Below are positions 1,007-28,802 of a DNA stretch of 31,949 bases, one piece after another; position 1 is the first letter of the stretch; each line of letters begins with the position of its first letter. The notes beneath the pieces were generated by a model, which worked only from the letters and a program-made list of their open reading frames with translations, ran no database searches and was not told the origin of the DNA. The position numbers and the translations under genes were made by a program. Source of the DNA: a virus; the IMG/VR virus record IMGVR_UViG_3300043783_000061, positions 1 through 31,949 of that record; one strand, written 5' to 3'.

Positions 1007-4000
1007 TTACTGGCTCCGGTGAGTGGCAAGGATCGCGCCCACAACTTGAATGTTTCCCGTCGCGGTGTCGGACGCTGATCTAAAGATGCGATAAACCATC
1101 TGCGCGGGGGAAGATGAAGCTGAAGGGCAGGAGTTGACTCCCGCCGTAGCGATGCCGGTGATGGCTGCCGTGCCCTGCACTCCTGCCGTACCGGGAACCG
1201 TGACGGTAACCGTGGTTGCGGTGCCAAAGGTCGGCGAGCCGGGAGTCGAACCACTGGAGGCCGGGCAGGCCGTCTGCGCTTCGAGGATGAACGTGCCCGA
1301 CGTGGCCGTCGCAGCGGTGTAGAGAACGGTGATGTCGGTTGAAGTCCAGTACGCCGGAAGGACGGTCGTCGCCTCTGCATACTGCGCAGACGATGGAGCA
1401 GCTTGGAAGGCGAGGTAAGCTGCCGTGGAGCTGGCGGGGTTGTAACACCCAAGCTGCGGAGCGTTGTTGTCATAGACGCTGAATCCGGTCGCGAACGCCA
1501 CGCCGCCATTGCATTGCGCAGCGTCGAGGAAGGTCGTGCCCGTCACAGCAGTGGAGGCAAGGGCGAACTGGACATTGCTTCCCGAGGGGTTGGTGACAGT
1601 CACCGCGCCCGCCCCCGACGAGTTCTGGAGGTTTACGGGGGAAGAAAGCGCCGAGCCGCCGTTGACGGTAATGCTCGCTCCGCCCGTGCAAAGCGCGTTG
1701 GCTACAGTGCAAGGCCGTGAGGCCGCCGCGCCGTTCTCGCTGATGGCCGCGTTGCCTGAAGAGTCGGTTGTGTAGATTGCGCTTCCCGAGACCGGCGTAA
1801 TCGTGGAGGACGAGGCGGGGAAAGTGATGCCGTGCCCACTGCCCGTACCGTGATAGACGAGCTGGCTTCCGGTGTCTTGCAACGCCGAAGATGTGGTAGA
1901 TGCCGTGGCCGAAGTCGCAAGCGGAAGGTATCCTGTGGTTTGCCCAGAAAGACCTCCGCCCGAACCGCATGACCCCCATGAAGGCGTCACACCAGCGCCA
2001 CCGGAAATCGGGCATTGTCCACTGGTGCCCGCGCTTCCATTGAACTCCAGCGGGGACGCGCTGCCTGCAAGATTCACCGCGCCCGTGTTGCTGAGGACGC
2101 CTGTGTTGTTGAAGGCATCCGCCACGCTGCCCGTGCCAATGAAGGTGAAGTTGTTAGCGTGCGTCGTGACTGAAGTGGTTCCGCTGGAGTTGGCGAGAGC
2201 GGAGTAGAAGTCCAGATCGTCCGCTACCCACAGTGGAATCGACATCCCTGTGGTGTGCTGGAACTCGAACATCGCAGACACCGGAGCAGAGTTGAAATAA
2301 TTCAGCGAGCCCATCGGGCCGTTCCATCCCCAGACTTTTTTGAGTATGTTTCGTCCGCTGTTGATGGTATAGAAAGAGGTCGGGTTGGCGTTATTGAAGT
2401 TAGAGATGAATCCGCCCAGGAATCCGCCGCACTCAAACGACCCTGAACCGCAGCCCCAGTTGATAGGTGTGTCCTGTGAGTAGGGATTGAAGTTCTGAAG
2501 GTTCATCAGCAGACGCCCCGAGACGGTCTGGGTCGTGCCGTTCGGGACTTCGAGGGCATCCGAGGCTGTGAAGGTTGCCGTGGTCTCCGCAAGGGTCACA
2601 TTGCCATCAAAACAGGCCTGACCTGCGCAGGAAGAACTGAGCGCCGGATCACGAGCATCCACGATCCTTGCACCCTGATAAATTGTGTCTGTTCCAGATC
2701 CGCTGATGAACCCGGAGTCCATCCCGTTCGGAACCTCCCGCGCTACGGCAAGTGTGGTGGAGTTGATCGCCCCCAACACGGTAAAGAGATGGCGGATGCC
2801 ACTGGATGTTGTCGTGTCGGCGTTCTGCTCCAGCAACCGCCCTGTCGGGCCTTCGCACATGAAGAAAGCCCCATTCTCGTGGGAGGACCGGAGATAAGCC
2901 GTCGCCGTCATTACGCCACTGGTGTAGGAAGTGACGTTGACGATCTTGGCGCTCTCAGTGTTCACGCCGCCGATGGTGAACTGGTCGCCGTTGGAGCAAG
3001 AAGAACTGATGGTCACGGTGAAGGTGGCGAGGATCGGTGTGTTGTTATTGTTCGGCAGCGTTGGGCCGTTGACCGCCGCGCTTAGAGAGCCCTGCTTGGA
3101 TGCGGTGAAGGTTTGCCCAGTCTCAGTGACCGCCGCATAGACATTCGTTCCACTGCCCTGTTGAGTAGCTCCAGTAGCCGTCATCGTCAGTACACCGGTC
3201 GTCTTGTCAATCAGCCATCGCCCCACACCATACACCCCAGAGTTGAAACTGGAGACCGTCATGGTGACGCCGGGAAAGCCTGAGGGGGTGCCGGTACTTG
3301 CCACGTTCGCCGTATAGACATTCGAGGGCGAGATGACCATCTGGTCGGCGTAGCCCGTGTATCCCTGTGCCGAACCGTCAATGCTGGCGGCGGAGTAACT
3401 TCCATTGAATACCAGCGGGTTGCAATCCCCGTTGCCCATGCAGTAAATCCCCGTGCCTCCGAGGATTGAGTGGTTCCCCTGCCCATAGGCTTCGAGGTTC
3501 ATGTTGTACATATCGGTGACAAGCGAACCGACGGAGGTTCCCGTGCCGGGAGAGCCGAAGTTGTAGCCGGGCGAAGTGAGGTATTGGTTCGAGGTGAGCG
3601 TGTTCTGTGCTCCGACTGTGATAGCTCCCGTGGTGGAGTTGTAGGTAAAGCCTCCCGTTCCCGCGTTACCGAAGGCGCTGGAGTTGTTGATCTGCACATC
3701 ACCATTCACGCCGCCGGGAGCCCCACCCGAAGCGATGCAGGTACTCGAGGCCGGCGAGTACGAATATCCCGTCGTCCCGCAGTTTGTCAGCCCCGACAGA
3801 AACGACGCCAGGTCCGCCGTCGTGGCCGCAACGCCCTGGTTGCCGGCGCTCGTGCCCTTCAGGAAAACCGTGGTCGCGGCGATCGTCGCTCCGCCGGCCG
3901 GATTCTGCGCAACGTACACGCCGCCGACGCCTTTGTATGTCACCGCAGGACCCTGCGTGTAATCGATAAGAATCAATCCTGCACAAACGCCGGTCTGGGC

Positions 4001-4273
4001 GCCGATGGTGTCTGAGGGATTGGCGCCGGGAAGCAGAATTACGGTCGAGCTCGAAGCGCCGTGAGCGCAGGCCGCCACCGTCGTCGCGGCGATGGTCTGG
4101 TAGCTCCCCGTGCCCATCTTCACGTAAAAATTAGTATTCAGCTGCGGAGCATAGGACGGCGCAATGGTCTGCTGGCCGTACAGTTTCATGGCCGCAAACG
4201 CCACCAGGGCGAACAGCGCGATCGCCATCCACTCCAGGAAACGCACTTTGTTTTGGCTCAGTTTCAGCATCAT
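1007..4273 (-). CDS. Large tail-fibre-like protein with N-terminal membrane anchor
   Basis: This 1088-residue protein has the low-complexity Gly/Ser/Thr/Asn composition of phage tail fibres. Residues about 13-31 (EWMAIALFALVAFAAMKL) form one strongly hydrophobic helix. Fibre-type modules follow, such as GGVNGDVQINNSSAFG near residue 185 and GYLPLATSATASTTSSAL in the last third. The C-terminal ~150 residues (from about AYWTSTDITVLYTAAT) resemble a beta-sandwich tip domain. It begins 4 bp after the preceding stop, at either of two adjacent ATGs (4273 or 4270), behind GAGGCG. It probably forms a long receptor-binding fibre. The first ~190 codons look more GC-rich in third positions than the rest, which suggests the distal part was exchanged. 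A membrane anchor on a fibre is unusual. Confidence 0.75.
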   Translation of the reverse strand: MMLKLSQNKVRFLEWMAIALFALVAFAAMKLYGQQTIAPSYAPQLNTNFYVKMGTGSYQTIAATTVAACAHGASSSTVILLPGANPSDTIGAQTGVCAGLILIDYTQGPAVTYKGVGGVYVAQNPAGGATIAATTVFLKGTSAGNQGVAATTADLASFLSGLTNCGTTGYSYSPASSTCIASGGAPGGVNGDVQINNSSAFGNAGTGGFTYNSTTGAITVGAQNTLTSNQYLTSPGYNFGSPGTGTSVGSLVTDMYNMNLEAYGQGNHSILGGTGIYCMGNGDCNPLVFNGSYSAASIDGSAQGYTGYADQMVISPSNVYTANVASTGTPSGFPGVTMTVSSFNSGVYGVGRWLIDKTTGVLTMTATGATQQGSGTNVYAAVTETGQTFTASKQGSLSAAVNGPTLPNNNNTPILATFTVTISSSCSNGDQFTIGGVNTESAKIVNVTSYTSGVMTATAYLRSSHENGAFFMCEGPTGRLLEQNADTTTSSGIRHLFTVLGAINSTTLAVAREVPNGMDSGFISGSGTDTIYQGARIVDARDPALSSSCAGQACFDGNVTLAETTATFTASDALEVPNGTTQTVSGRLLMNLQNFNPYSQDTPINWGCGSGSFECGGFLGGFISNFNNANPTSFYTINSGRNILKKVWGWNGPMGSLNYFNSAPVSAMFEFQHTTGMSIPLWVADDLDFYSALANSSGTTSVTTHANNFTFIGTGSVADAFNNTGVLSNTGAVNLAGSASPLEFNGSAGTSGQCPISGGAGVTPSWGSCGSGGGLSGQTTGYLPLATSATASTTSSALQDTGSQLVYHGTGSGHGITFPASSSTITPVSGSAIYTTDSSGNAAISENGAAASRPCTVANALCTGGASITVNGGSALSSPVNLQNSSGAGAVTVTNPSGSNVQFALASTAVTGTTFLDAAQCNGGVAFATGFSVYDNNAPQLGCYNPASSTAAYLAFQAAPSSAQYAEATTVLPAYWTSTDITVLYTAATATSGTFILEAQTACPASSGSTPGSPTFGTATTVTVTVPGTAGVQGTAAITGIATAGVNSCPSASSSPAQMVYRIFRSASDTATGNIQVVGAILATHRSQ

Positions 4274-21324: not shown

Positions 21325-21903
21325 TTACATCTGCAGTGCGTAGCCATCGCACGGCCGCGTCGGCAGCACGGGATTGCCAGTCTGCGAGTCGGTGAGCGTG
21401 ATGGTGTTGCCGCAGTCCATCGGTTGCGCGGACTCCGGCGTCAGGGCCTCGTCCGCTGCCTGCTGCCAGAGCTCGTCGAACCGTTTCTTGTCTGCTTCGA
21501 ATTTTGCAACACGGGCATCCCGCTGCTCTTCGCTCTCGCCTTTGCGCCGCGCCTGGGCCATGTTCTTCGGGTGCGGACTGAAGAGCCGCAGACGGCAGCC
21601 GGCATTGCACATGATCAGCCGCGTGAATCCATCGGGCATATACGCGCGCGTCAACGCTGTCGCTCCCTTGCCGCCGAACGGATTCGCCGGCGTCCCGCCC
21701 TGGCGATGACGGCAGCGTCTCGCGGTGCCGATGCGTACGGCGTTCTCGGCCTTCAACTGCGCCTGGCGCTTGGCATTGTCAGCGGCCCGCTGTTTCTTGG
21801 CGGCCTCATGCTGTCGCACTTGTTCGGTTGTCAGCTCCAGCCGCATCTCTGCTTCCTGCAGCTGCACCTCGGCAAGCCGTTCCTGCATTGTCCTGTCGGC
21901 CAT
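21325..21903 (-). CDS. Coiled-coil/cysteine-containing protein, 192 aa
   Basis: The start is taken at the ATG at 21903 behind GAAGGAAG; the longer frame runs into a strong hairpin and the coat gene. Residues ~5-60 form a charged coiled coil (MQERLAEVQLQEAEMRLELT). A central region follows with CRHRQGG, FGGKGATAL and MPDGFTRLIMCNAGC, suggesting a zinc site (C-x-H plus C-x3-C). A second charged helix precedes the C-terminus. It lies just after the coat gene, which hints at a head role, but no function is established. Confidence 0.6.
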   Translation of the reverse strand: MADRTMQERLAEVQLQEAEMRLELTTEQVRQHEAAKKQRAADNAKRQAQLKAENAVRIGTARRCRHRQGGTPANPFGGKGATALTRAYMPDGFTRLIMCNAGCRLRLFSPHPKNMAQARRKGESEEQRDARVAKFEADKKRFDELWQQAADEALTPESAQPMDCGNTITLTDSQTGNPVLPTRPCDGYALQM

Positions 21904-21982: not shown

Positions 21983-23260
21983 CTAAGTCGTCTGCGGGAT
22001 GGCGTTGGCGATACGTGCGCGGCTGGTCGCGTCGGGCGGAAGGCCGACACCCAGCACGCAGTTGTATCCGGTGCCGGCCATGATCAGGCCGTTCGGATCG
22101 TAAGCGGTGCGTTCCTTGTACTCGCCCGCCCACAGGTTCATGTTCTGCCAGCGTCCGTCGATCTTCGTGTGCCGCTTGTTCGGGAAGTTCACGAAGACGA
22201 TAGCGTCGGCGCCCGCCAGGTAGGTGCTGAGCGCGGTGTCGCCCGTGCTCTGCCAGTTGGCGTATTGCGTCTGGTTCGTGGACTGCCGCCAGTGAGCACC
22301 GAACAACTCGAGGATCTTCGTGGGGGCTTCGCCGTCCGCATTCGGATCGGTCAGCTCTTCCAGCTTGATCTGGCCGGCGTCGGTACGCTTCCAGATGTCC
22401 ACGATCGAGTTGTTGGTGCTGTCCAGCGTCAGATCGCCCACGAAGAACGGATGAATCGAGCCGTTGTAGAAACCGCTCGCCATCGGCCGCACGTTCGCGC
22501 CCGAAAGAGAAGCAGGCATCTGCTCGATCTGGCTCTTCGTAAAGGCATAGGCCGGGGTTGTGGTCGACGGCGCGTCCTGGTTCGACGTGCGCGAATCCCA
22601 CGTGCGCAGGTAATCGAACATGTACATCACGAGATCGTCGATCGTCTGCCCCAGCTGGTAGGCCATCACGCGGCGATTCTCTTCGAGGTCATTCGAGATC
22701 GAGGTCATGAACGCGAGATCTGAGATGTTGTTGTAGTTCGCGTACTGTCCGACCACGATGTCCTTGAAGTTAACGTTGATCTGCTCGGGCGGCCCGATCG
22801 TGCCTTCCGTCTGCTGCTGCACATCGGCTCCCAGCGGAATCGACATGAAGTTGCGGAAGGTCTGGCCGCTCTTCTCGGGCAGGTCCATGTGCGTGCACAG
22901 CATCAGCTTGTTCAGATTCATGTACAGCCACTTCATGAAGACGCGGTTGTAGTGAATCGTGAGGCGGGCCTGCGGCATGTTCGCCGAGGTCTGCGCCGCC
23001 GGCGAAGGTCCATCGCTCAGCGTTGGCACCTGCGCAGCCACGCGTGCTGCGCTCAGTGCCGCCTGCCCGGTTACAAAGAGAGCTGAGGCGATCGCCGCTA
23101 GCAGGCATAGCAGCGGATAAAAGACGAACTTCATCAGAAACGCGGCGAGCCTGTCGCCCCACGTCGGCTGATAGACGTACGGAATCGAGCGCACAGATTG
23201 GCTCCCATGCACCCAGTGCTTCTTTCGCTTCCACATGCGGAACTTCTGTGTGACGGTCAT
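21983..23260 (-). CDS. Major capsid (coat) protein, N4-gp56/P22-like, with N-terminal membrane-like helix
   Basis: 425 residues from ATG 23260, which has an ideal CAGGAGACGACG site. From about residue 95 (MPQARLTIHYNRVFMKWLYM) it follows the pattern of N4-gp56/P22-type coat proteins: a GQTFRNFMSIPLGADV region, a TEGTIGPPEQINVNFKDI segment, then VGQYANYNNISDLAFMTSIS and long helices (NRRVMAYQLGQTIDDLVMYM). The position after the portal and putative scaffold supports this. Unusually, residues ~39-65 (FLMKFVFYPLLCLLAAIASA) are a full-length hydrophobic helix, preceded by a basic stretch (WKRKKHWVHG). This could be a cleaved assembly extension or a membrane-targeting element. Confidence 0.7.
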   Translation of the reverse strand: MTVTQKFRMWKRKKHWVHGSQSVRSIPYVYQPTWGDRLAAFLMKFVFYPLLCLLAAIASALFVTGQAALSAARVAAQVPTLSDGPSPAAQTSANMPQARLTIHYNRVFMKWLYMNLNKLMLCTHMDLPEKSGQTFRNFMSIPLGADVQQQTEGTIGPPEQINVNFKDIVVGQYANYNNISDLAFMTSISNDLEENRRVMAYQLGQTIDDLVMYMFDYLRTWDSRTSNQDAPSTTTPAYAFTKSQIEQMPASLSGANVRPMASGFYNGSIHPFFVGDLTLDSTNNSIVDIWKRTDAGQIKLEELTDPNADGEAPTKILELFGAHWRQSTNQTQYANWQSTGDTALSTYLAGADAIVFVNFPNKRHTKIDGRWQNMNLWAGEYKERTAYDPNGLIMAGTGYNCVLGVGLPPDATSRARIANAIPQTT

Positions 23261-23276
23261 CGTCGTCTCCTGCGCT

Positions 23277-24104
23277 CTAGGCGCTGGCTTCCCGATAGTA
23301 GTAGTCGCACGCTGCCGCATAGTCCGGATCGTTGTCTTCGATCAACTGCTGCGATTTCGCCATCGGCATGGTGCGGATCTGCTCTTCGGTATATTTCAGG
23401 GTTCGCGTCTGCGGTGTCTGCGGCGCACGGAAACGGCGGCTGCTCGCTCCGGTCGAAAACACCTCGCCTCTCGGCCTCTCCACACGCGCTGCACCTGGCT
23501 CTCGCCCGGAAACGGTTGATGGTTCGGGTTGTGGGGTTATGGGTTGCGCGGGCGCTGCAAACAGCATTCCGCGGTCCTGCATCTCGTGAAAACACTCGGT
23601 CAGCAATTCTTTGGTGATCAGCCCCACCTTTCGGCCCACCTTGCGGCCCGCAAGATCGCCCACCAGCGTGCGGTTGCCGGGGTGCGGATAGAACTCCGGC
23701 GTCTCCTGCTCCCACTCTTCCGCCAGGCGCTTGAAGTTATCCAGCGCCACTTGGTTCAGATCGAGGCCCAGGGCATCGCCGGCCAGCCGCGCGATCGCAG
23801 ATCCCGCCTTGGCCGGATTGCCGAGGTCCGCCGTTGCCTGCGCCACCTCGTCCGAGGTCATCGGCTTCGGCACAGCAACCGGCCCAGGGGAGGGTGAGCC
23901 GGGCTGTGCGGGCTGGCGGCGCCGCTCGCTCAGCGTCCGCTGCGCATTCAGATTGTTCCGTGCCACTTTATCCAGCACTTCCTGCTGGTTGGCGCCGTAG
24001 GTGAAGATTGGATTGGTGCCGTCCTCGGGATCCTGCACGTAGCAGACTGTGCCCGGCTCTACCGGTTGCCCGTTCGGTCGAATCTGTGTCCAGTACGTAT
24101 TCAT
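23277..24104 (-). CDS. Putative scaffold/head-assembly protein, 275 aa
   Basis: The start is taken at the ATG at 24104, which overlaps the previous TGA as ATGA; upstream codons of the same frame look like shadow. The protein is hydrophilic. It has a short ordered N-terminus (MNTYWTQIRPNGQPVEPGTV), Pro/Gln-rich linkers, a helical centre (QATADLGNPAKAGSAIARLA) and a C-terminal helix (YTEEQIRTMPMAKSQQLIED). Such composition between portal and coat genes is where podoviruses place the scaffold. The assignment rests mainly on position. Confidence 0.5.
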   Translation of the reverse strand: MNTYWTQIRPNGQPVEPGTVCYVQDPEDGTNPIFTYGANQQEVLDKVARNNLNAQRTLSERRRQPAQPGSPSPGPVAVPKPMTSDEVAQATADLGNPAKAGSAIARLAGDALGLDLNQVALDNFKRLAEEWEQETPEFYPHPGNRTLVGDLAGRKVGRKVGLITKELLTECFHEMQDRGMLFAAPAQPITPQPEPSTVSGREPGAARVERPRGEVFSTGASSRRFRAPQTPQTRTLKYTEEQIRTMPMAKSQQLIEDNDPDYAAACDYYYREASA

Positions 24105-24511
24105 TGCTGCTTCACCGGCTCCAGTTGCTCGATCTCCTGCTTCACCAGCGTCTCCATCTCGATCCGCGCCCGGTTGAACATCGTGCAATACGCCCACTCT
24201 TCGGCGATCGCGTCGCGGTGTCGTAACGGATCCTGCTGACTCAAAGCAATAGCACGATTCTTGTGGTTTTGGAAGGCTTTTTCTAGCACGCGGTTCAAAA
24301 CTGGCCAGCCGACGCTGTTGCGGAGCTCTTTCAGGTCCTCGCGCTCGCCCGTGTTCAACTCCCGCAGCGGATTCTGGGCGCCGTCGAGAAAGAAGGGCAG
24401 CGACGGCATCACACCCGGAGACTTCAGCATGCTCTCGGCCATCTGGTCTCGTAAGGATGCCAGCTCGTCGTTCAGCGGCTTACCCTGCAGGTAATCCTCG
24501 TGTGCGCTCAT
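24101..24511 (-). CDS. Hypothetical helical protein, 136 aa
   Basis: Bounded by ATGA overlaps on both sides. The product is mostly helical and acidic (LNDELASLRDQMAESMLKSP, DLKELRNSVGWPVLNRVLEK, IEMETLVKQEIEQLEPVKQQ). No motif is recognised. It may be a head-assembly accessory expressed with the portal, or a packaging co-factor. Confidence 0.6.
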   Translation of the reverse strand: MSAHEDYLQGKPLNDELASLRDQMAESMLKSPGVMPSLPFFLDGAQNPLRELNTGEREDLKELRNSVGWPVLNRVLEKAFQNHKNRAIALSQQDPLRHRDAIAEEWAYCTMFNRARIEMETLVKQEIEQLEPVKQQ

Positions 24512-24864
24512 GCTGCCATCTCCACTTCAAAAAATCCCAACTGACCACGACACGGTCTAAACGGAATCCGCTCAGCGTCTTTCAATAGAAATCCATACTC
24601 GCCGAAAAACCATTTGCTTTCGGATGCCGTGACGCATCCATGGATCGTCACCGCTCCCACGATCCCTCCGGTTTCGAAATTATCAGGCAGAGAGATTTCT
24701 GGGTGGGCGCGCCGGATGTACTCGATCGCTTGCTCGTCGATTTTTTTACCTGCATGGACGAGCACGTGGCCGCGGAATCGCGTCGGCCAATCGCGATTTT
24801 CAATGTCCTTGTGCCCATTGACTATCAGCCATGCCCATGGCTGCTGGATACTCAGCGCTTTCAC
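24508..24864 (-). CDS. ASCH-domain protein
   Basis: 118 residues with the hallmarks of the ASCH fold: MKALSIQQPWAWLIVNGHKD at the N-terminus, then IENRDWPTRFRGHVLVHAGK, a helix, the strand GGIVGAVTIHGCV and the closing WFFGEYGFLLKDAERIPF and GQLGFFEV. ASCH domains are beta-barrel, RNA-associated domains. Some bacterial relatives (YqfB) hydrolyse N4-acetylcytidine. Lys-19 and Glu-22 are conserved-looking polar residues near the pocket, but activity cannot be inferred. It is embedded by ATGA overlaps between portal and head-assembly genes, so it is expressed late with virion proteins. Confidence 0.75.
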   Translation of the reverse strand: MKALSIQQPWAWLIVNGHKDIENRDWPTRFRGHVLVHAGKKIDEQAIEYIRRAHPEISLPDNFETGGIVGAVTIHGCVTASESKWFFGEYGFLLKDAERIPFRPCRGQLGFFEVEMAA

Positions 24865-27086
24865 TGCAGCCCTCCCGTCAGCAGCTGGGTATCGGTGTTC
24901 CGCGTCAGCCGTGCTTCAGCCAGCTCCAGCGGCGTCGGACCCTCCGCGCGGTTCTGAGCCGGGCCGCTTTCGCCCCCGCCCTCCGTCGCGGCCTTCGCTG
25001 CCGCGCGCACCACTTCCGTCTGCGCGGCCTGGTGGCCCTGCTCCTGAATCTCCTGAATCTTGTTCTGGCCTTTCAGTTTTTCGATCACCGCCGCCTGCTG
25101 CGTCTTGGCCATCGTCGGATTCATCTGCTGCACCAGCTGCAACTGCTGCGGCGTCAGCGGCACGATGATGTCCTGGCGTCCCTGCAGTTCGCTCATCTGC
25201 ATAAACAGATCCTCGATCGCCGCGAAGTTGATCGTCTGCCCCTTCTGGTGCATGTACTCGAGCAGTTGCGGCTGCTGCACCAGCTGCAGCAGGAACGGGA
25301 TCAGTTGCAGGATGTTCGCCTTCGCCTGCAGCTTCTGACCGGCCAGCACCTTGATCTCGAATTCCATATCGAGAAACGCTTCCGCGTCGATCGTCTCGAA
25401 GATCGCATCGCCGAACTTGCGGCTGAGAATTTCGCGAATCTCGCGGATCGGCATCTTCTCGCAAATCATCTCCCACTTGAACCGATTCCACCGGATGATC
25501 ACGTTCTCCAGGTGCTCGATCGGGTCGCTGATATTCTCGTCGGCTTTGCCGCCCACGCGATTCACGCCCGCCGCGGTGCGCATTGCGCTCGAGCCCGGTC
25601 CGCCCAGGTTGCCCTGCATCGTGGTCGAGTTCGCTCCGACGAGGTCCTCGCCGCCGTCCTTGCCCAGCTGGTAAATCTTCCACGCCTCGGGCGGCACTTC
25701 CGGCATTTTCATAAAGCCGAACGCCTTATTTACATCGCCGTCTTTGGTGTTCACCCCCCAGAAGGTCCCCATGCCCAGGATCACGTTCTGCGTGGGCTGG
25801 TTCCCCATTGACGAGTCATACAGAATCGGCGCATTCATCGGAAACGCGATCATCTTCAGCACTTCGTTCAGCACGCCCTGGTCCATGCGCTGATCGCCGG
25901 CGTTCAGGCGTCCGATGCCCATCCCGTAGCCCGAGTTATCGATGTTCCACCAGTTCGCCGCATATCCCAGCGCGTGGTCGCCGATCTTGTGCTCTTCGTT
26001 GCGAATGCACTTTTTGCGCCCGTTATAGCTGAGGAACTCAATGACGCGATCCCCCGTCCAGTACGCCACCTTCATCAGCGGCTTCTCGAATGGATTCTCG
26101 CTGATGTTCTTCTGCTCTCCGCCGGCGTGCAGCACCACGCTCGACTGCGTGTTCATCGCCTGCGCCACCTGGCTCGCCGGTTCCGCATCGCCGAACGGAT
26201 TCGCGAGGAAGAACTTTTTCAGTTCCTCATCGTCGGGAATGTCCTTGTAGCAGGTCAGGCCGCGCATCTGCTGCAGGTCCTGGAAGTTCACATAATCGAC
26301 GTCGACGCGAAACGTCGCGCTCATATCTGGCCGGTTTGGCGTGTTCCACTTCTCATCCCAGAAGGTTGTGCCCAGGCGGCGATATTCGAAGTACGGCCAG
26401 CTTTCTGTGACCGTGTCTTCGATCGTCTTCCACTCGTCGCTCTCCCACGTATCGACCTTTACCGGCTCGCCCGCGGGCATCGGGATCTCAGGCGGCGGTT
26501 TCTTCGGTACGCGCCGCCGCTTGATGACCTTCCGCTCTTCCCACCCTGGAATCGCGATGCCTGTGCCCTGCAGCGTCTGGCACTCGATCAGCAGCGTCAT
26601 GTTGTATTCGAAGTCCGCGCGATCGTCCAGCACGCTCAGCAGCTCGGTGGCCGCGTCGATGTACGTCTGCGCATTCTGCTGCGATGCCAGTTTGCCGCGC
26701 GGCTCCAGCACAAATGGAACTTCCTGCGCGAAGATGCCTCGGCGCACCTGGTTCGACATCGTCTGCGCATTCTTCGCCACGTTGAACCGCGAGATCCGCG
26801 CCGGCCGATTGGTCTGCATCCTCCAGTCGCGATCGTAATTCGGGCTCTGCTTCAGGTAGTCGATGTACTGCCACTCGGCCAGCCAGCTGTTCGTCTCGAG
26901 CCACGCCTGGGCCTGGCGAAAATCCATCCAAGCCACAGTGACCGCAGCATTGTCATCCAGCGCTGGCTCGCTTGTCCCGCCCGGCGCGATCGTCACCTGC
27001 TCCGCCTGAATCAGCGGCGTGAGCTCATTGCCGATGGGCATCCCATCGCCCGCCGGCTTCGCTGCGATCTCGAGTGTGTCAGCCAT
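24861..27086 (-). CDS. Portal protein, P22-size, 741 aa
   Basis: Located 15 bp after the terminase gene. The length is close to the ~725 residues of the P22 portal. An early helical region (AWLETNSWLAEWQYIDYLKQ, then MQTNRPARISRFNVAKNAQT) leads into a mixed core (YFEYRRLGTTFWDEKWNTPN, GYAANWWNIDNSGYGMGIGR, MIAFPMNAPILYDSS). From about residue 600 it becomes a Gln-rich helical tail (PFLLQLVQQPQLLEYMHQKG), reminiscent of the portal barrel that projects into the capsid. The ring would thread DNA during packaging by the terminase encoded upstream. No catalytic motif is expected. Confidence 0.75.
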   Translation of the reverse strand: MADTLEIAAKPAGDGMPIGNELTPLIQAEQVTIAPGGTSEPALDDNAAVTVAWMDFRQAQAWLETNSWLAEWQYIDYLKQSPNYDRDWRMQTNRPARISRFNVAKNAQTMSNQVRRGIFAQEVPFVLEPRGKLASQQNAQTYIDAATELLSVLDDRADFEYNMTLLIECQTLQGTGIAIPGWEERKVIKRRRVPKKPPPEIPMPAGEPVKVDTWESDEWKTIEDTVTESWPYFEYRRLGTTFWDEKWNTPNRPDMSATFRVDVDYVNFQDLQQMRGLTCYKDIPDDEELKKFFLANPFGDAEPASQVAQAMNTQSSVVLHAGGEQKNISENPFEKPLMKVAYWTGDRVIEFLSYNGRKKCIRNEEHKIGDHALGYAANWWNIDNSGYGMGIGRLNAGDQRMDQGVLNEVLKMIAFPMNAPILYDSSMGNQPTQNVILGMGTFWGVNTKDGDVNKAFGFMKMPEVPPEAWKIYQLGKDGGEDLVGANSTTMQGNLGGPGSSAMRTAAGVNRVGGKADENISDPIEHLENVIIRWNRFKWEMICEKMPIREIREILSRKFGDAIFETIDAEAFLDMEFEIKVLAGQKLQAKANILQLIPFLLQLVQQPQLLEYMHQKGQTINFAAIEDLFMQMSELQGRQDIIVPLTPQQLQLVQQMNPTMAKTQQAAVIEKLKGQNKIQEIQEQGHQAAQTEVVRAAAKAATEGGGESGPAQNRAEGPTPLELAEARLTRNTDTQLLTGGLQ

Positions 27087-27101: not shown

Positions 27102-28802
27102 TCACCCGTCGAGTCCCCCCGGAAGCGGAGGCATCGAAAAACTCGTCGTCCGCTCCATCGCCGCCAGGTGCGCCTGCACCTTCTGTTTCGCCTGCTCGTC
27201 CACCTCGGGCATCCCCTGCTGCGCCATGAAGGCTGAGAGTTGCGCATCCTCGCGCCGGCGCCGCTGCCACTCCAGCTCGTCTTCTTCCATGCTCGCGCGC
27301 ATCTGGCTCAGCGGCACCATGTCGGCCAGCTTTGACACGCATTCGATGATTCCGTTCTCCGGCACCAGCCCGAAATGCACGAACTGCTCCTTGCATTTCA
27401 TCTGGTTCGTCATCGCCGTCGAGAACAGCAGCCGCCCCACCTTCATCAGCGGCTCCATCTGTTCGATCGCCGCCGTGCGCCGATGATCGTCTTCCTCCCA
27501 GTCCACCCAGGTCAGCTTGACGCTCGCGTTGCGCCGCGCCGCTTCGTTGCGCACCAGCGTGGCCATGTACTCGCTGCCCGGCGTGTAGAGAATCATCATT
27601 GCGTCGGCGTCGGTCTGCTTGTGGCAATGCACCATCCGCTCCGCTAGGCCGCTCGGCGTGGCCGTCGACACCCAGCAATCCGTCACGTACACCTTGCCGT
27701 CGCGCACCAGCGCCGCCGCGCCCTCCGCGTTCTTCATGTTGTCCTTGCCACCATAGGGCAACCGCCAGCACGTGTACACCTCAGCCCCGCGGCCGTAGCG
27801 TGGAATACGTTCCGGCGTCACCAGGCAACTCGCCCACAGCTTGTCATCGAACTTCGGCACATGGCCGCCCTGCGGGTCGTTTTGCTGCTGGCACATGAAA
27901 CTCTCATAGTTCGCGTAAAACTTCGCGCGCATCGCCCGGTAGTCATTCCCTGGCAGCTCCGCGAAGTTCATGATTACGTCTTCCTCGTCCGGAAACTCGC
28001 CGGGCAGCAACCGCGCCCCGCTCTTCACCGTCAGCGACGTGCGAATCAGGATCTTCCACATCTCCGAATCCATGTTGTCCAGCAGGTGCCCATACAGATC
28101 GAACGGGTGATACCGCGTGCCCCGTACGTTGATGTAGCCGCCCGCGCGCAGCAGGTTTTCGTTCTGGTCGTAGACGTCGATCACCTTGCGCCGCACCGCA
28201 TCCGTCGCGCTGATGCCCGAGTTCTTCGTCTCCGCCATGTCATCCGGATTCATGATCCACGGATGCCATCCGGACTGCACGCTCTCCACCGACGTGTACG
28301 CCAGCGTCTTCTGAATGTCGCTCGGATCAAACCGCCGCGTGGGCGAGTTCCACGTATCCAGCGTCGCAAACGGTTCTTTCGCGCACTGCAGCTCTGGAAA
28401 CAACCGCTGCAGGATCGTGCGCGGTCCGCCGTGTCCTATCCAGAAATAATCCGCGATGCCTTTCGAGAGCTCGCGCGCCAGCGGCTGCGTGGCCGTCTCA
28501 TTCAGGATGGTCACATAATCCGGAAAGGCGAGAATCCACTGCATGCTGTCGACGCGCCCCAGCGTGGACTTGAAGGTTCCGCGCGGGTCGAGATGCATGC
28601 GCTTTTTGATCGGGTGCTGATCGACGATCGAGATCGCGGGATTCTTCGGAAAGTAGAGGTCGACTGCTTCGCGATGCACCGAAGGACGGAACTCTTTGAA
28701 GCCCATCACCTCAGCCAGAAAAAAGTGATCTGTGATGCAGCGATGCCGCAGATCGTTGCGATATTGCTCATCGTGCTCGATCTTGTCGGTATCGAAGATC
28801 AT
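27102..28802 (-). CDS. Terminase large subunit
   Basis: A 566-residue packaging motor. Residues 73-80 (PRGTFKST) form a Walker A variant, followed by the helix LGRVDSMQWILAF. Residues 182-188 (WIMNPDD) fit a Walker B with its acidic pair, and NETATQPLARELSKGI near 101 fits the adenine-binding region. The C-terminal half (VYVTDCWVSTATPSGLAERM, MMILYTPGSEYMATLVRN, WVDWEEDDHRR) fits the RNase H-like nuclease with scattered acids. The ATG overlaps an upstream TGA (ATGA). A recognisable small subunit is missing; candidates are the preceding small genes. It cleaves and packages concatemeric DNA through the portal. Confidence 0.85.
   Translation of the reverse strand: MIFDTDKIEHDEQYRNDLRHRCITDHFFLAEVMGFKEFRPSVHREAVDLYFPKNPAISIVDQHPIKKRMHLDPRGTFKSTLGRVDSMQWILAFPDYVTILNETATQPLARELSKGIADYFWIGHGGPRTILQRLFPELQCAKEPFATLDTWNSPTRRFDPSDIQKTLAYTSVESVQSGWHPWIMNPDDMAETKNSGISATDAVRRKVIDVYDQNENLLRAGGYINVRGTRYHPFDLYGHLLDNMDSEMWKILIRTSLTVKSGARLLPGEFPDEEDVIMNFAELPGNDYRAMRAKFYANYESFMCQQQNDPQGGHVPKFDDKLWASCLVTPERIPRYGRGAEVYTCWRLPYGGKDNMKNAEGAAALVRDGKVYVTDCWVSTATPSGLAERMVHCHKQTDADAMMILYTPGSEYMATLVRNEAARRNASVKLTWVDWEEDDHRRTAAIEQMEPLMKVGRLLFSTAMTNQMKCKEQFVHFGLVPENGIIECVSKLADMVPLSQMRASMEEDELEWQRRRREDAQLSAFMAQQGMPEVDEQAKQKVQAHLAAMERTTSFSMPPLPGGLDG

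Follow-up and report, generated by a model that had tools for sequence, protein, structure and literature searches.

A conserved transmembrane-like N-terminal extension on the predicted HK97-fold coat protein of one soil-phage lineage

The major capsid protein encoded in the window (the whole stretch of DNA analysed here, 31,949 bases long, which is the complete virus record itself) begins with an N-terminal extension that, as far as sequence can show, is translated. The extension is constrained, keeps a fixed geometry and is specific to one lineage. The stretch singled out by the first-pass annotation (22979–23260, minus strand) corresponds exactly to codons 1–94 of the capsid gene (21983–23260, minus strand, 425 aa). 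Tailed-phage coat proteins are soluble, and the cytoplasm is where they assemble, together with a scaffold. When such a protein carries a conserved transmembrane-like helix throughout a lineage, this would represent either a new built-in assembly domain or a membrane-linked route of head assembly. A keyword search of the open-access literature found no such helix on an HK97-fold coat protein, which is weak evidence.

The protein matches the major head protein family phrog_1357 (E 4.5e-07) and, at 29.8 bits (E 3.5e-07), the N4-gp56 model TIGR04387, whose curated cut-off of 60 bits it does not reach. By sequence, it is thus a distant relative of Escherichia phage N4 gp56 that falls below the cut-off and is not filed as a member of that family (TIGR04387, PF25209), with which it shares the predicted HK97 fold. 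TIGR04387 matches 32 of 33 aligned members of the lineage at E values up to 0.1 (best 7.3e-13). When its match to the window protein is extrapolated, the family begins near residue 91, which leaves the extension beyond the limits of the domain. The capsid core, from the NMPQ motif onwards (residues 94–425; 21986–22981, minus strand), is common to relatives that lack the extension. An AlphaFold2 model built from 43 sequences has a mean pLDDT of 58.5, i.e. low confidence, and an earlier model was poorer (53.9). VIA-align nevertheless superimposes about 230–245 residues of this low-confidence model on the capsid proteins of HK97 (PDB id 1ohg, Z 11.2), N4 (9e99, Z 12.4) and Moo19 (Z 12.5). These matches run from about residue 105 on, and the list is filled by capsids and encapsulins. 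The gene product is modelled, on this basis, as an HK97-fold major capsid protein; a sequence search of the PDB returned a weak match only, to the phage B2 capsid (E 0.31).

Residues 1–93, which precede the family domain, comprise a basic patch, a hydrophobic segment and an Ala-rich stretch, as the first-pass annotation had described for the patch and the segment. The basic-aromatic patch RMWKRKKHW (residues 8–16; 23213–23239, minus strand) belongs to only one of the two forms of the extension seen in the alignment: a short form of about 60–70 residues, and a long form, lengthened at the N terminus by about 30 residues that hold the patch. The hydrophobic, transmembrane-like segment (residues 45–65; 23066–23128, minus strand) is kept in relatives of at least about 49% identity. 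Its peak, residues 45–63, has a Kyte–Doolittle mean of 2.44 over 19 residues, compared to a peak of 1.09 in the capsid core, and none of 500 shuffles of the extension attained this value. Among the 32 ORFs of the window treated as genes, only three other products have a comparable segment: a two-helix 68-aa protein, a 126-aa protein and a 1088-aa spike-like protein.

The segment is embedded in a predicted single long helix (residues 34–81; 23018–23161, minus strand), which is where the AlphaFold2 model (mcdfb5e388156) is most confident, with block mean pLDDTs of 83–91 across residues 31–70. Column statistics show Pro49, Gln52, a basic residue at 44 (Lys or Arg) and Trp or Phe at 48 to be common. 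They also outline a possible small-residue zipper at positions 56, 60, 64, 68, 72 and 76 (23033–23095, minus strand), where 91% of cells hold small residues, compared to 28–52% in the three other registers. This i+4 helix-packing pattern extends beyond the hydrophobic core to residue 76. The period-4 pattern is suggestive only, its permutation p being 0.03 for period 4 and 0.25, not significant, over all periods. A flexible linker follows (residues 82–93; 22982–23017, minus strand), in which [DE]G.SP is conserved, and the pLDDT is below 50 at residues 81–109. From N to C terminus the order is thus hydrophobic segment, Ala zipper, flexible linker and core.

The start codon at 23260 lies 6 nt downstream of a Shine–Dalgarno sequence, AGGAG (23267–23271, minus strand). 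A scan found no Shine–Dalgarno match at the internal ATG at 22978 (Met95), in keeping with the earlier remark that this codon lacks a good ribosome site. Relatives were collected by IMG/VR searches and their reading frames traced back to the start; those with the extension comprise 45 distinct sequences in the tree and 12 more loci, some near-identical. At about 49% identity or more, relatives without exception carry the extension in frame, 59–94 residues long where measured and with its hydrophobic segment, and GGAG or better precedes most of the starts. In most sequences, down to 49% identity, about 30 residues separate the end of the hydrophobic 19-mer from the N[MT]PQ motif. In close pairs dN/dS is about 0.1–0.3 in the extension and about 0.01–0.1 in the core, and the extension codons are under purifying selection. 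In more distant pairs the extension reaches values of 0.4–0.7 and thus evolves far more rapidly than the core.

If translation actually began at Met95, the extension would never be made. Met95 does sit where extension and core meet, and the proteins of relatives that lack the extension begin about 11 residues ahead of the same motif, but the missing Shine–Dalgarno match, the purifying selection on upstream codons and the fixed geometry all speak against such a start. Furthermore, 10 of the 12 loci of a sister clade have Thr where the window has this Met. The replacement, together with the selection and the conserved frame, makes initiation at residue 95 very unlikely in the window and rules it out in the sister-clade members that carry Thr; overall we give this explanation hardly any chance. 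The first-pass annotation, which considered the extension probably translated, is borne out by the Shine–Dalgarno start, the selection, the conservation and the Thr replacements. It had also proposed aligning relatives for conservation and taken relatives lacking the segment as counter-evidence; the extension is present in all relatives down to about 49% identity, and the segment is missing only at about 35% identity and beyond.

The carriers of the extension form one soil-phage lineage. The capsid proteins of Tunturi_3-type phages (about 35% identity; contigs of about 91–99 kb where long), of N4 (gp56) and of Page start near the core and have no counterpart of the 59–94 residue hydrophobic extension. 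The phage collection searched yielded no isolate with this capsid type, Tunturi_3 being the nearest cultured phage in it. In a tree of 58 cores a single change explains the extension (support 98/93), though the outgroups sit on very long branches and the rooting is therefore tentative. The extension is clearly present in two sister clades. In the window protein a long form precedes a core whose nearest relatives are of the short form, and this combination hints at mosaic exchange or repeated loss. Compared to one such relative (L001), the window protein is 89% identical in the core and only 38% in the extension. This contrast, and the modular character of an extension that has no counterpart in distant relatives, could also be read as the fusion of a separate small membrane gene to the capsid gene, an origin that the first-pass annotation had listed. 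That origin appears improbable. A profile of the extension, run against all ORFs with 40 codons or more in the loci then available, found no free-standing homologue: all 67 matches were strong and at the level of the capsid gene, with no weak extra matches. A search of bacterial and archaeal genomes for a prophage or host found none. One of the IMG/VR records (IMGVR_UViG_3300010376_000035, 68,976 bases; L046/L047) carries the same capsid region inverted at both ends, which is probably an assembly artefact.

The capsid gene lies in a head module with much the gene order of N4, i.e. terminase, portal, small gene, scaffold-position gene and capsid. The terminase large subunit (27102–28802, minus strand) matches phrog_38 (E 4.1e-17), and the portal-like gene (24861–27086, minus strand) has a weak match to phrog_332 (E 0.021) and falls in the terminase–capsid interval, as in N4. 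Directly upstream of the capsid gene is a scaffold-like gene (23277–24104, minus strand, 275 aa), its putative role assigned from its position, which equals that of N4 gp57; it has a weak match to Tunturi_3 ORF4. The window adds to this order an ASCH-domain gene (24508–24864, minus strand; PF04266 E 6e-07, phrog_3193 E 8e-50) between the portal and scaffold positions. The protein directly downstream of the capsid protein (21325–21903, minus strand, 192 aa) is of low hydrophobicity and rich in charged residues. It has a homologue in 51 of 51 extension-bearing loci and no family match better than E 0.016.

We tentatively interpret the extension as a self-associating assembly helix, akin to a built-in scaffold domain. 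This is the reading we prefer, even though we put it at slightly less than an even chance. An HK97-fold major capsid protein would have gained the helix once, in one phage lineage. The helix would pack on its own copies and/or on the scaffold at the inner face of the forming procapsid, via the small-residue zipper, and this packing could raise the local concentration of the coat or set its curvature, much like the delta domains of HK97 and T5. It would work alongside the separate scaffold-like protein. Where the long form is present, its basic tail may contact DNA, a membrane surface or the scaffold. The helix may be retained in the virion or cut off, the latter in line with the cleaved assembly domain among the options of the first-pass annotation. 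We favour this reading because a helix followed by a low-confidence linker repeats, from N to C terminus, the arrangement of a delta domain. The i+4 pattern, the fixed geometry, the purifying selection, the single change on the tree, the Shine–Dalgarno start and the uninterrupted frame in relatives argue for it as well.

Like the delta domains of HK97 and T5, the extension of the window lineage would be an N-terminal helical domain joined by a flexible linker to an HK97-fold core. HK97 and T5, however, have no separate scaffold gene (PMC3185693), whereas the window lineage always has a scaffold-like gene (51 of 51 extension-bearing loci; role presumed from position), and its helix is hydrophobic. 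Because of this gene a second scaffold is not obviously needed, which counts against an assembly helix, and the window protein, strictly speaking, does not count as a delta-domain protein. No prohead protease family was recognised by Pfam or PHROGs among the window proteins, most of which match nothing. In a partial Mantel analysis the extension distances track those of the scaffold-like protein (partial 0.61, p 0.001), but control neighbours (terminase, portal and others) gave similar linear values, and the rank partials with the extension are 0.24 for the scaffold-like gene and 0.31 for the 192-aa downstream gene. A specific covariation of extension and scaffold was dropped, since the other neighbours behave alike, and its lack of specificity also weighs against the assembly-helix reading.

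In the main rival reading, the helix might instead anchor or dock the coat at the inner membrane as the site of prohead building and be released or cut later, which we consider rather unlikely; membrane-associated assembly was also among the options of the first-pass annotation. Its hydrophobicity is above expectation for an ordinary soluble assembly helix and favours this rival: the Kyte–Doolittle mean over 19 residues is 1.57–2.49 in all members, and the sum on a biological scale, a crude figure computed with no position weighting, is −0.87 for the window protein. Lys or Arg at 44 and Trp or Phe at 48, at the start of the segment, as well as Pro49, Gln52 and a GxxxG-like zipper, are usual in membrane helices, and spike-like proteins of the same phages bear Sec-type signal peptides. 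However, the biological-scale sum is near or above 0 in most relatives, so insertion would be marginal. Moreover, the net charge is positive before the segment in nearly all members and near neutral after it, so the positive-inside rule predicts an N-in/C-out orientation, by which the capsid domain would end up in the periplasm, whereas DNA is packaged in the cytoplasm. The transmembrane-like helix of the first-pass annotation holds as a description of the sequence, while its membrane insertion is only putative, with a sum that is marginal in many relatives and a charge pattern that would put the capsid domain outside the cytoplasm were the segment to insert by the usual rule.

Possible membrane association of the forming head would be a point in common with T4, the precedent for membrane-associated proheads, where the link is made by a separate membrane scaffold/portal chaperone and not by the coat protein (PMC3185693). 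According to the same 2011 review, prohead membrane association was at that time unproven beyond T4 (PMC3185693). Filamentous phages, too, have a hydrophobic membrane helix on their coat protein pVIII, which resides in the membrane as an integral protein until it is extruded (PMC3185693), but its fold and virion are unrelated. No membrane-associated partner of the window coat protein was identified. That the coat protein itself carries a membrane-inserting, self-associating helix and nucleates proheads on the host inner membrane, in place of the separate chaperone that T4 uses, seems to us unlikely.

The basic N-region, the hydrophobic region and the Ala-rich end also look like a leader, and the extension could serve as a Sec signal peptide for export of the coat. 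Position 76 is invariantly small (Ala in 31 and Ser in 3 of 34), so that position −1 is always Ala or Ser, but position −3 relative to it is most often Met, Gln or Leu, which is poor for signal peptidase I. The long-form motif [YF]RMWK.KK.W (23213–23239 in the window, minus strand) is similar to KxYKxGKxW, a signal motif known from surface proteins of Gram-positive bacteria, although below the curated cut-off. Weak matches occur in the long form: TIGR03715 matches five members (best E 0.002), and PF19258 matches one (L030, E 0.00025) with a best score of 21.4 bits, short of its cut-off of 23.6. No KxYKxGKxW match reaches the curated Pfam cut-off, and neither model matches the window extension. 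Export would also part the coat from DNA packaging, and we hold out little prospect for this explanation.

Signal peptides occur elsewhere in these genomes, on spike-like proteins in many phages of the group. A large spike- or fibre-like protein of the window (1007–4273, minus strand) starts with one of the Sec type, as do spike- or fibre-like proteins of a related locus (L107:9976–12435) and of the G001, G007, G008, G013, G014, G016 and G017 contigs; an example is MKKAILVLCFIVFAAAIAQQ. The one encoded at L107 is a tail spike that resembles pectate lyase (PF12708 E 5e-13, phrog_2234 E 7e-09). Export is not expected for virion spikes. A tie between these peptides and the capsid extension was rejected, as a contig without the extension (G022) has such peptides too. 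Finally, small signal-peptide proteins are encoded just downstream of the capsid gene, in the head module, in L003, L008, L011, L014, L015, L023 and L118.
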